Assembly: GCA_022565335.1 (NCBI GenBank)
Contig: JAIUMY010000017.1
Location: 1 to 42,351 of the forward strand
Direction: 5' to 3'
Length of the DNA: 42,351 bases
From: Opitutales bacterium
GTDB taxonomy: Bacteria > Verrucomicrobiota > Verrucomicrobiia > Opitutales > T3Sed10-336
In this document: positions 36,511 to 42,108 of the stretch, piece by piece
How positions within the stretch are numbered: position 1 is the first letter of the stretch
How the letters are laid out: each line of letters opens with the position of its first letter
The notes under the pieces: model-generated
Database searches by the model: none
What the model was told of the DNA's origin: nothing
Seen by the model: only the letters and a program-made list of their open reading frames with translations
Translations under genes and position numbers: made by a program

Positions 36511-37548
36511 ATGTCTCTAATCGACCGCCTTACCGCTAAATTACAACGCCACCCGAAAAGGATTGTTTTTCCCGAAGGCTCCGACCCCCGCATCCTGCAA
36601 GCTGCCCGCCAGTTCAAAACGCGTCGCATGGGCGTGCCCATCCTCCTTGGGGATCGGTCGGTCATTAAGGACCGCGCCGCCAAACTGGATATCGATCTCA
36701 CCGGAATTCGCCTCATCGAACCGGAACGCAGTGAGAGTTTTCCTGATTTCGTCAGAAATCTTGAGAATGTTCGCCGCTATAAAGGTATGCATATGGAGGA
36801 AGCGACCGCAGCGATGAAAAACCCCAGCATCTTTGCCACCATGATGTTGGCAACGGCCCAAGCCGATGCCATTGTCTCCGGAGCCACGGCCTCAGCGTCC
36901 TCCGCCCTCCGCCCTCTTTTTCGAATCATTCCCCGGCAGGAAGGCGTGGAAACCGCCAGCTCCATGCTTATTCTCGATTTGGAAAATAAAGATTTGGGCC
37001 TGGATGGGGTCCTCTTCCTTGCCGATTGTGGCGTTTTACCCGATCCCACCGCTGAACAACTTGCTGATATCGCTATCACCACCGCGCGCATTGCCAATCA
37101 CCTGACCAATGAAGTTCCCCGGGTGGCCATGCTGGGCTTTTCCTCCAAAGCCAAAACCGCCAAACACCCGGCCATCGCCAAAATGCAGTCCGCCACCGCT
37201 TTGGCCAGGCAAAAGATCCGTTATTCCGGCGACCAATTCGAAATCGACGGCGAGATGCAGGTCGATGCCGCCCTGGATCGCCGCACTGCGGAAATCAAGG
37301 GAGTTGGCGGCTTTGTTGCGGGCCGTGCCAATGTTCTCATCTTTCCCGACCTCAACAGCGGAAACATTGCCGCTAAACTGGTCCAAACCATATCCGGAGC
37401 CAATGCCTACGGCCAAATTATTACCGGTTTGCAAAAACCTGCCGCGGAAGTAAGCCGGGGCATGAGCGCACATGACGTCTTCGGGGCGGCCACGATTGCT
37501 GGTTGCCAGGCCATTGATATACGCTTGTTGTATGGAAACCCTAATTAA
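36511..37548 (+). CDS. pta: Phosphate acetyltransferase, catalytic domain
   Basis: Pta interconverts acetyl-CoA and acetyl phosphate. The 345-residue protein is the short single-domain PTA_PTB form. The start RIVFPEGSDPRILQAARQF is typical, followed by DAIVSGATASASSALRPLFRII, LFLADCGVLPDPTAEQLADIAITTA, VAMLGFSSKAKTAKHP, EIDGEMQVDAAL and VLIFPDLNSGNIAAKLVQ; all are core active-site segments of the family. In E. coli the same enzyme has an N-terminal BioD-like/DRTGG regulatory region; here a separate gene encoding such a region follows 11 bases later. No acetate kinase gene is adjacent. Confidence 0.95.
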   Translation: MSLIDRLTAKLQRHPKRIVFPEGSDPRILQAARQFKTRRMGVPILLGDRSVIKDRAAKLDIDLTGIRLIEPERSESFPDFVRNLENVRRYKGMHMEEATAAMKNPSIFATMMLATAQADAIVSGATASASSALRPLFRIIPRQEGVETASSMLILDLENKDLGLDGVLFLADCGVLPDPTAEQLADIAITTARIANHLTNEVPRVAMLGFSSKAKTAKHPAIAKMQSATALARQKIRYSGDQFEIDGEMQVDAALDRRTAEIKGVGGFVAGRANVLIFPDLNSGNIAAKLVQTISGANAYGQIITGLQKPAAEVSRGMSAHDVFGAATIAGCQAIDIRLLYGNPN

Positions 37549-37559
37549 ACCCATTCACC

Positions 37560-38711
37560 ATGCCGCCCGCTGAACCCGAAGAACCAAAGGTTTTGATGGA
37601 AAAACCCATCAACCGGGAGACCAAACGCATTTTTGTTGCCGCTACCCGGCAAAACGACGGGAAAACCACCTCCTGCCTAGGGCTTTACGCCGCCCTGCAA
37701 GCGCGCTTCCCAAGAGTGGGCTTCATTAAACCGGTAGGACAAAGGTTTATCGAGGTCGATGGATTCAAAATTGATGAAGACTCCTTCTTACTTGATGCCA
37801 TTTATAAGGTGGACGTTCCCATCAGCTCAATGAGTCCCATTGCCATTGATTCGACCTTCACCCGGCGGTATCTGAAAAACCCCGGCACCGCACTCGGCAA
37901 GCTGGTCGATCAACTCTGCCGTTCTTTTGACCGGGTTTCCTGGGAAAAAGATTTTACCCTCATCGAAGGAACGGGCCACGCCGGGGTGGGATCCGTCTTC
38001 GACCTTTCCAATGCCCGGGTGGCCAAAATCCTCGGAGCCAAAGTGATCATTGTTTCCCAAGGCGGCATTGGCCGCCCGGTCGATGAAATCTCTTTAAACA
38101 AAGCCCTCTTTGATAAGGAAGGCGTCGAAGTCATCGGAGCGATCATCAACAAGGTTCAAGGCGATAAAATGGAGATGGTGCAGGACTTTGCGGGACGGGC
38201 CCTAAAGCGTATTGGCATTCCGTTGCTGGGGGTTTTACCAATCCAACGTATGTTGACGGCTCCCAACTTAGGCCAGGTTGCCGAAGAAATAAAAGGCCGC
38301 TGGATTAACGGCAAAGCGGATGGCGAGGATGAACGCATCATGAGGTTTGTTATTGGGGCTATGACCGCCAAAGGTGTTATCGATTACCTCCAACCCGGGG
38401 TCTTGATTATCACTCCGGGCGACCGCGACGACATTCTCCTGGCCGCTATCGCCAATGCGGGAATCTCCGGAAAAAAAGTTATCTCCGGGATCATTCTTAC
38501 ACGCGATATCATGCCCCATCCCAAACTAATGGAACTGCTCGCCCAAACCAATATTCCGGTAATCGCCGCAGTTGAGGACAGCTACGCCATCGCCTCCAAA
38601 ATCGCCGGAATGACCATCAAAACCCAGCCACGGGACAAAGACAAATTCCCCATCATCAAAAACCTGATCAACGATCATGTCGATATGGATACGCTGATCA
38701 ATTCGTTTTGA
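37560..38711 (+). CDS. P-loop (BioD-like) plus DRTGG protein, counterpart of Pta N-terminal region
   Basis: The 383-residue product matches the N-terminal regulatory part of long Pta enzymes. Residues about 20-240 form a BioD-like P-loop NTPase: IFVAATRQNDGKTTSCLGLY with a Walker A-type GKTT, VGFIKPVGQRF, DFTLIEGTGHAGVGS and VIGAIINKVQGDKM. Residues about 265-375 form a DRTGG-type domain with RFVIGAMTAKGVIDYLQPGVLIITPGDRDD. In long Pta proteins these regions tune activity. Encoded immediately after the catalytic gene, it probably forms a complex with it. ATG 37560 gives a disordered N-terminal lead; ATG 37596 is an alternative. Confidence 0.85.
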   Translation: MPPAEPEEPKVLMEKPINRETKRIFVAATRQNDGKTTSCLGLYAALQARFPRVGFIKPVGQRFIEVDGFKIDEDSFLLDAIYKVDVPISSMSPIAIDSTFTRRYLKNPGTALGKLVDQLCRSFDRVSWEKDFTLIEGTGHAGVGSVFDLSNARVAKILGAKVIIVSQGGIGRPVDEISLNKALFDKEGVEVIGAIINKVQGDKMEMVQDFAGRALKRIGIPLLGVLPIQRMLTAPNLGQVAEEIKGRWINGKADGEDERIMRFVIGAMTAKGVIDYLQPGVLIITPGDRDDILLAAIANAGISGKKVISGIILTRDIMPHPKLMELLAQTNIPVIAAVEDSYAIASKIAGMTIKTQPRDKDKFPIIKNLINDHVDMDTLINSF

Positions 38712-39760: not shown

Positions 39761-40201
39761 CTACCGACCACGACGGCTTTCCCCAAATTCGACCAAAATC
39801 TCATCCCGGAAAACTAGCCGCATTTTCTCGTAGAATTGCTGGCGCGTGCGGTCAACTTGTCGACGGTGATAAGTACGACTGAATCTCGCAAAATCACGGA
39901 CTTGGTAAGAATCAACCACCAGAAAACTCCCCAAATAAATCCAATGAGTTTCGGTCTCCTCCATCGTCACCCTGCGCTGCACCTGATCCGGATTGCCCAA
40001 GGCCAGCCGAACCATCTCCGTACTGAACCCCAAAGCAATCTCACCATTTAAAATTTTATTCTGCTCTTCCTCGGATAAACTGGAAAAGTAAAGTTCATTT
40101 TCCGCGACCCGCTGTTCCGGAGTACTCGCACACCCCGCTAACAGAGCGAAAACCACGAAAGCGCAAAGACAAAGGAACGGGAGATGTTTTATTTTTGTCA
40201 T
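39761..40201 (-). CDS. OmlA/SmpA-like outer-membrane lipoprotein
   Basis: The 146-residue product has a lipoprotein signal: basic MTKIKHL, hydrophobic core, then the lipobox LLAGC with Cys24 as the acylated residue. The mature part contains KILNGEIALGFSTEMVRLALGNPDQVQRR, the helix-turn motif of the SmpA/OmlA/BamE-like fold (the small lipoproteins that support the BAM complex), followed by ETHWIYLGSFL. The C-terminal third is strongly basic and helical (FARFSRTYHRRQVDRTRQQFYEKMRLVF). A BAM accessory role is possible but not shown; many OmlA-fold proteins have other jobs. ATG at 40201. Confidence 0.85.
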   Translation of the reverse strand: MTKIKHLPFLCLCAFVVFALLAGCASTPEQRVAENELYFSSLSEEEQNKILNGEIALGFSTEMVRLALGNPDQVQRRVTMEETETHWIYLGSFLVVDSYQVRDFARFSRTYHRRQVDRTRQQFYEKMRLVFRDEILVEFGESRRGR

Positions 40202-40323
40202 GACTCAATACTGACCGCAAAAACAACCCCAGGTGCTGATTATTCTTCCGGAGATGCTAATATCAATTGATTTTCCCTCCAAACTCCTTACCCTCAAGCT
40301 ATAACTCTCATCCCCTTACAGCC

Positions 40324-42108
40324 ATGATCTTCACTCGCAAAATAGGAAAAATCATTCGCGGCAAAACCACCCCATTTCATCTCTACACCGCGACCTTACT
40401 CGGAGCCTTGATCGGGTTTTTACCCTCCTTTGCGGCAGCCCCCGGGTATTTCCTCCTTCTTTTAGTCCTTTTGATCCTGCTGAACGCCAACTTGTTTCTC
40501 GGTGGCCTGTTTATCTTAGTGGGGGCCTTGTTTTCGGAATTACTCCTCCCAGTCTCTTTTCGCATCGGCCAGGTCCTCCTGGACGGACCACTGGGCGGCT
40601 TGTTCGCCATCCTCGTGAATGCACCGGTTTTCGCCTGGTTTGGCCTGGACAACTACAGCTTGGTTGGCGGCATACCGATCGCCCTGGCCCTGGGTTGGGC
40701 CGGAGGATTTGGAGCCCGCTCGGGCTTACGCGCCCTCAGACGCAAATTAGGTTCTCTGGAAACAGACTCCCCCAAATACAAGGAGTGGACCAGTAAGTTT
40801 TGGGTCCGGGCTCTCTTTTGGATTTTATTCGGTGGAATTAAGGGCAAAGCACCCATGGCCGAATTGGCAGACCTGCGCAAAGGCTCTGTGTTTCGGCCCC
40901 TCGGCCTCCTTCTCGCGGGGCTAACCGTACTGTTTTTATTTGTCTGCTCACTCTTCCTCTCCGACTTCATTCTCACTACCCAGACGCGCCACGCACTCGA
41001 AAAAGCCAACGAAGCAACCGTTGACCTCGGCGGAGTCGATCTGCGTCTCCGCGAAGGGCGCCTAACTCTGCACGGCCTCGCCCTGGCCGATCCCGAAGAT
41101 TTGCAACGCAACCGTTTTGCGGCCACTACCGTCGAAATTGATCTTAGTACCAACGATCTTCTGCGCAAACGTTTTGCTTTCGACAATATTGAGGTAACCG
41201 GTGGGCGCATCAACTTTCCCCGCGAAACCCCCGGCGTTCGGATTGCCCGGCCGGCACCCCTCCCCAGCGAAGATGAGGTCGAGGACGAGGAACTCAAAAC
41301 CTTGGAAGATTACTTGGCTGAGGCCGAAGTCTGGCAAGAACGATTGCGCAAAGTCCGCGAAATTCTGGAGCGCTGGGAACGCGATGGGGAGGAACCCATT
41401 GAAGAACGCGATCCCAACTGGCGGGAACGCGTTCGCGAACGCGCTGCCCAGACCGGATACGCCACCGTTACCGCCTCTCACCTCCGGCGACAAAACCCCA
41501 CCCTGACCATCCACCGCCTGCTGGCGGGAGACGTCCTATTCCACGGTTTGCCGGAAGAACGATGGACCATCACCGGTCGCAACTGGTCCACTCAACCACG
41601 ACTCCTGCCGGAAAGTCCGGAGTTGAATATCGAGACCGACAGCGAACGTTTCGGGATGAACGTGAACCTGAAGGGATTTTCCCAACAAGCCGGCGAAAAT
41701 GACCTGCGTTTCTTTGCCCACGATATTCCCGTAGAAGAAATTCGCAATCTCCTCCGCGACCCGTCAAATTTCCCCCTTTCCGGAGGATTGGCCAGCTTTC
41801 ATATCGAAGGGACTTTCTCTCCGCGGGCCCTGAACCTTCCCTTCGAAACCACTTTCCTTAACACCACCGTTACCGTTCCAGGCATAGGAGAGCGGGCAGT
41901 GGAGGAATTACGTCTCCCCTTATCCCTCGAAGGTGCCATGGATCAGCCCAGACTGCGGATTTCTGATGACGAATGGGCCCAAGCCTTACGCGACACCGGC
42001 CAACAAGAACTCCAGCGTCGCGGAGAACAGTTACTGCGCGACCAACTGGGCGGAGACTCCGAAGATTCCGACCCCGTTCGCGGAATGCTCGAAGGCTTGC
42101 GGCGGTAA
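40324..42108 (+). CDS. Fused TIGR03546-like membrane / TIGR03545-like AsmA-type protein
   Basis: The 594-residue protein has two parts. Residues 1-145 resemble TIGR03546/DUF2062 proteins: TPFHLYTATLLGALIGFLPSFAAAPG, then three strongly hydrophobic segments (about 41-60, 60-78, 88-107) and a Gly-rich helix (113-132). A further membrane segment at about 192-215 (PLGLLLAGLTVLFLFVCSLFL) anchors a periplasmic part that resembles TIGR03545/AsmA-like beta-rich domains: VDLGGVDLRLREGRLTLHGLALADP, TVEIDLSTNDLLRKRFAFDNIEVTGGRINF. An acidic coiled-coil insertion lies at about 316-380. TIGR03546 and TIGR03545 are, to my knowledge, usually adjacent separate genes; here they are one frame. The start is ATG 40324. 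Likely an envelope or lipid-transport protein. Confidence 0.75.
   Translation: MIFTRKIGKIIRGKTTPFHLYTATLLGALIGFLPSFAAAPGYFLLLLVLLILLNANLFLGGLFILVGALFSELLLPVSFRIGQVLLDGPLGGLFAILVNAPVFAWFGLDNYSLVGGIPIALALGWAGGFGARSGLRALRRKLGSLETDSPKYKEWTSKFWVRALFWILFGGIKGKAPMAELADLRKGSVFRPLGLLLAGLTVLFLFVCSLFLSDFILTTQTRHALEKANEATVDLGGVDLRLREGRLTLHGLALADPEDLQRNRFAATTVEIDLSTNDLLRKRFAFDNIEVTGGRINFPRETPGVRIARPAPLPSEDEVEDEELKTLEDYLAEAEVWQERLRKVREILERWERDGEEPIEERDPNWRERVRERAAQTGYATVTASHLRRQNPTLTIHRLLAGDVLFHGLPEERWTITGRNWSTQPRLLPESPELNIETDSERFGMNVNLKGFSQQAGENDLRFFAHDIPVEEIRNLLRDPSNFPLSGGLASFHIEGTFSPRALNLPFETTFLNTTVTVPGIGERAVEELRLPLSLEGAMDQPRLRISDDEWAQALRDTGQQELQRRGEQLLRDQLGGDSEDSDPVRGMLEGLRR

Follow-up and report, generated by a model that had tools for sequence, protein, structure and literature searches.

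The gene at 40324-42108 on the forward strand of the window (the whole stretch of Opitutales DNA that was analysed, 42,351 nucleotides) is a real, selected and divergent member of a fused architecture that has already been reported, with a TIGR03546 and a TIGR03545 module sharing one frame. The fusion as such is not new and has been in print since 2014, when NAMH_0533 of Nautilia profundicola, Nautilia being a member of the Campylobacterota, was named as a fused TIGR03546+TIGR03545 gene and FTT_0505 of Francisella tularensis was termed a plausible one (PMC4035852). For the protein of the window I tentatively propose, with somewhat less than even confidence, that a polytopic DUF2062 inner-membrane module is joined to a short AsmA/DUF748-like periplasmic beta domain and that the two handle lipid at the inner membrane. 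The protein would then unite in one chain the TIGR03546/TIGR03545 pair, which some bacteria encode as two genes; its DUF2062 module would keep the groove next to the bilayer and perhaps admit lipid. Lipid transport may fairly be inferred from the kinship with DUF748 and AsmA; literature searches with the family names and the Francisella locus tags found no function for TIGR03546, TIGR03545 or any of their members, and no paper was found that joins DUF2062 with AsmA.

The frame is single and intact, running over 594 codons from an ATG at 40324 to a stop codon that ends at 42108, with zero internal stops. This ATG was preferred to an alternative TTG start at 40267, which would give 613 residues, because the relatives start at the position of the ATG. 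The NCBIfam model TIGR03546 matches residues 8-123 (profile positions 7-120 of 154; 35.0 bits, E 1.2e-8), and TIGR03545 follows in the same open frame at residues 203-350 (profile positions 14-157 of 556; 52.6 bits, E 2.7e-14), so that the direct match of this protein alone covers only the first quarter of the TIGR03545 profile. The first-pass annotation had claimed that both families are present in one 594-residue chain, and these two matches, with which the relatives agree, confirm it; it had named a lack of significant matches as the outcome that would speak against a fusion, and since both parts match significantly this outcome is absent. Both scores lie below the curated cut-offs (79.45 bits for TIGR03546 and 173.35 bits for TIGR03545), and by these profile comparisons the protein is related to both families, though divergent; with it, a divergent subfamily of the fused form comes into view that scores under the cut-offs of the curated models. 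In the Pfam part of the proposed profile search, DUF2062 is matched below its gathering score (E 0.0012), and the AsmA profile reaches E 0.36, hence no match at E 0.01. DUF748 is matched at residues 196-301 (E 4.7e-8, 32.0 bits against a gathering score of 50), and no profile of the AsmA/TamB/DUF748 clan exceeds its gathering score in this protein in the Pfam search.

The chain opens with the TIGR03546/DUF2062-type membrane module at residues 8-123 (40345-40692). Hydropathy averaged over 28 sequences locates hydrophobic stretches within residues 24-81, at 114-130 and at 195-213, the latter (40906-40962, peak 2.57) being the predicted last transmembrane helix and the anchor of the AsmA-like part; L102 entered this average without its start, and was used complete in the charge, periodicity and profile comparisons. 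Ahead of this helix lies a basic loop at residues 137-192 (40732-40899); at residues 136-192 the means over the same 28 sequences are 13.3 basic (K/R) and 4.9 acidic (D/E) charges, compared to 4.9 and 0.3 at residues 1-20 and 1.1 and 2.3 at residues 80-110. The positive-inside rule predicts a cytoplasmic location for the N terminus and this loop, and a periplasmic one for the residues beyond 213; the AsmA-like part would hence lie in the periplasm. This part starts with the stretch matched by TIGR03545 and DUF748 (residues 203-350, 40930-41373) and continues with a putative helical, coiled-coil-like insert at residues 327-354 (41302-41385), a predicted beta-rich second half at residues 391-545 (41494-41958) and a predicted C-terminal helix at residues 548-575 (41965-42048). 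Strand-like periodicity prevails at residues 215-305 (43 of 82 windows, versus 21 helix-like) and more so at residues 391-545 (99 of 146, versus 18), and helix-like periodicity is found at residues 326-390 and at the C-terminal end; as the signals are mixed in the membrane module (43 strand-like and 56 helix-like of 141 windows), periodicity is a rough guide only. Topology and beta periodicity together support the anatomy proposed here, and the arrangement typical of the AsmA clan, an N-terminal transmembrane anchor followed by a beta-rich periplasmic part, is present as far as sequence can tell.

AlphaFold models, computed from two-sequence alignments with the relative at locus L022, were of low confidence (pLDDT 40 for the whole protein, 45 for residues 205-594 with their L022 counterpart). 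In the model of residues 205-594, blocks with a pLDDT of 54-80 occur only in the last ~130 residues; it shows strands near the C end. The C-terminal helix is present in both models, and the secondary structure of the whole-protein model also has a helix at the insert. A Foldseek search with the low-confidence model returned nothing under E 0.001, and the best VIA-align Z was 5.0, which is at noise level. TamB (5vtg) was considered as support for the fold and rejected, its VIA-align Z of 3.7 (rmsd 4.7, 73 aligned) being tied with Sm-fold proteins. A search by sequence for a relative of solved structure found none, the best hit (E 0.046) being a coiled-coil protein.

AsmA-like proteins are described as inner-membrane-anchored lipid carriers between membranes, and TamB, YhdP and YdbH as having phospholipid-carrying grooves of more than 700 beta-rich residues (PMC8593681); DUF748 has been called similar to TamB and AsmA (PMC4494059). 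The beta-rich stretches of the fused protein total ~245 residues by the periodicity boundaries, and measured against those >700 residues it seems unlikely that the fused protein spans the periplasm alone. The genome of the window contains one PF04357 (TamB-family) match in a frame of 1308 codons, so such a bridge may already exist there; a match to PF05170 was not found in this genome.

Kinship with the two families can be followed through the relatives. Twelve fused proteins, including that of the window (alignment A2), align from end to end with 22-41% identity to the window protein; both NCBIfam families are matched in all 12 and, at E 0.01, DUF748 in 11 and DUF2062 in nine of them. The NCBIfam model for BspA, a Brucella effector, also hits two of the 12 with E values no higher than 0.01, presumably via the DUF2062 module. 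Profile-profile comparison relates the N-terminal module to other DUF2062 proteins with 95.8% (E 7e-9, nine sequences). The single frame of 795 residues in genome G282 (L110:7651-10038) scores over both curated cut-offs, with 346.8 bits for TIGR03545 (profile 6-555) and 159.6 bits for TIGR03546 (profile 1-153). The clade of the window protein (21 sequences) matches a second clade of fused proteins (six sequences) across 562 columns at 100%, and this second clade in turn matches G282 at residues 11-304 (99.4%) and 413-584 (84.6%), reversed controls reaching at most 2.2%. The window clade itself reaches G282 only over residues 9-313 (98.1%), and the C-terminal half is therefore tied to TIGR03545 via the intermediate clade. 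Directly and through these relatives, both modules belong to the wider TIGR03546/TIGR03545 superfamily.

At E 0.001, TIGR03546 matches 70 and TIGR03545 matches 126 of 194 genomes drawn evenly from the phylum, mostly through DUF2062-type or AsmA-type matches at unrelated sites. Among the matches listed, the two share a single frame in at least 11 genomes (G000, G055, G050, G087, G127, G126, G035, G159, G091, G119 and G158). The first-pass annotation had described the two modules as usually separate neighbouring genes and had called for a comparison of both forms in related genomes; among the matches listed, no TIGR03546 and TIGR03545 matches were seen adjacent in separate frames in the 194 genomes. 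A survey of 177 genomes of the order with profile A2 at E 1e-6 yielded matches in 41 genomes: 18 intact (one frame without inner stops that extends at least to profile position 566 of 596), seven interrupted, partial or remnant (G394, G507, G512, G453, G470, G441 and G429) and 16 resembling the AsmA-like start only. Among the matches listed, the fused form is thus the sole intact form seen in the phylum in these two surveys. A general contig search matched one locus only, L022, on a contig titled Acidobacteria bacterium, and in its phylum 14 of 199 genomes match profile A2 (E 1e-6), G194 and G318 at full length, G282 over profile positions 8-324 in a frame of 800 residues, and the other 11 partially. 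No relatives were found in viral contigs, nor in plasmids (three queries). The fused form is accordingly widespread in at least one further phylum, beyond the printed Nautilia and Francisella genes, and the fusion is not the accident of one genome. The genome of the window is a draft of 196 contigs, in which two genes might have been wrongly joined by an assembly or frame error, but the like architecture in 18 of the 177 genomes of the order and at full length in two of the 199 of the other phylum refutes such an artefact almost entirely, as does a same-genus copy, in G434, with 510 of 594 residues identical (86%).

Compared to this G434 copy, dN is 0.086 and dS 1.61 (NG86), giving a dN/dS of ~0.05 that is rough because dS is near saturation; dN is lower in residues 1-190 (0.056) than in residues 191-594 (0.101). 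Both modules are clearly under purifying selection. In genus g134 (loci L103, L120 and L121), the fused gene is interrupted at three different places (G441, G453 and G470) and survives as a remnant in G429, next to an intact copy in G418. In G441 the gene is divided into two frames that overlap, the break falling near residue 170, between the two modules. A functional two-gene form was considered for it and rejected, and the split is read as decay or sequence error because in this genus G453 and G470 have their interruptions elsewhere and G429 holds a remnant. Such broken copies within one genus, the patchy spread in the order (18 of 177 genomes intact) and a beta part that is short for a bridge would all suit an accessory envelope-assembly factor, whose AsmA-like part serves the assembly of outer-membrane proteins or a polymer as a scaffold or chaperone and whose DUF2062 module is a mere anchor, with no lipid moved. 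However, conservation in the DUF2062 module is no lower than in the periplasmic part (the mean frequency of the commonest residue is 0.57 at residues 1-150 and 0.42-0.52 at residues 215-545), which is beyond the need of a bare anchor, and I regard this explanation as rather doubtful.

Under the preferred reading of lipid handling at the inner membrane, the two modules would act as one machine, as the first-pass annotation had suggested. This remains reasonable, both modules being under purifying selection and the deep splits of their trees mostly agreeing, although the agreement is incomplete. Of 25 splits, 11 are common to the two module trees (28 sequences). One of these sets the window clade apart from G282 and the second fused clade, with support of 0.88 (N tree) and 1.00 (C tree). 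Three splits of the N tree that are supported at 0.9 or above clash with equally supported splits of the C tree, two of them concerning the placement of G194 and G318 (from the phylum of L022), G126 and G439. Some exchange or tree error may lie behind these clashing splits; the trees fit an old joint history with noise or exchange, which leaves a single fusion unproven. The agreement of the main splits would also suit an N-terminal module that acts as an active lipid flippase or scramblase and feeds the groove, with loader and carrier in one chain, and the partnership of DedA and AsmA suggested in PMC10127716 makes such a plan plausible. Set against this, the profile comparison of the DUF2062 module gave 4.9% with VTT/DedA (PF09335) and 0.4% with PF06695, though this comparison has no power because its positive control, VTT versus PF06695, also failed with just 0.9%; PF09835 does not occur in the main text of PMC7818093. 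I consider an active flippase or scramblase unlikely here, and a self-contained loader and carrier, in which DUF2062 transfers lipid through the inner membrane, or out of it, and is covalently joined to an AsmA-like groove, less probable still. If true, it would correspond, in one chain, to the pairs of scramblase and bridge that have been proposed in eukaryotic autophagy and, as DedA and AsmA, in bacteria.

The neighbourhood of the gene was compared in 33 regions, i.e. the end of the window and 32 loci. The fused gene forms a cluster in 31 of them, an overlapping frame having been taken instead in the two exceptions (L096 and L114), and the next most common cluster occurs in five of the 33 regions, so that no conserved partner gene was found. 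This fits a gene that does not need a co-transcribed partner, and it makes the fused gene one protein in which the cooperation of DUF2062 with an AsmA-like groove could be tested. In the window, a small lipoprotein-like gene on the reverse strand (39761-40201; DUF6491 E 0.0089, below cut-off) adjoins the fused gene, and a relative of it lies beside the fused gene in G434 as well. Further upstream on the forward strand, a phosphotransacetylase (PTA_PTB, 36511-37545) and an AAA_26+DRTGG protein (37560-38708) are encoded by adjacent, separate genes. The enteric Pta has these parts in a single chain, in the reverse order.

Among known systems, NAMH_0533 and FTT_0505 resemble the window protein in carrying both families in one chain, by the description in PMC4035852, and in comparison to these two, known here by that description, the window protein is a divergent relative that stays under both curated cut-offs. 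G282 has the same order, TIGR03546 and then TIGR03545 in one chain, but is ~200 residues longer, mainly around the helical insert, which is far longer there, and shares 25% identity over residues 44-324. The stand-alone DUF2062 proteins are homologous to the N-terminal module (the 95.8% and E 7e-9 given above), but those among the matches listed are without the AsmA-like part that the window protein has. AsmA, YicH, YhdP and TamB have, like the window protein, an N-terminal transmembrane helix and a beta-rich periplasmic domain matching DUF748; whereas proteins of the AsmA/DUF748 type are described as anchored by a single helix (PMC8593681), the window protein adds a preceding DUF2062 membrane module.
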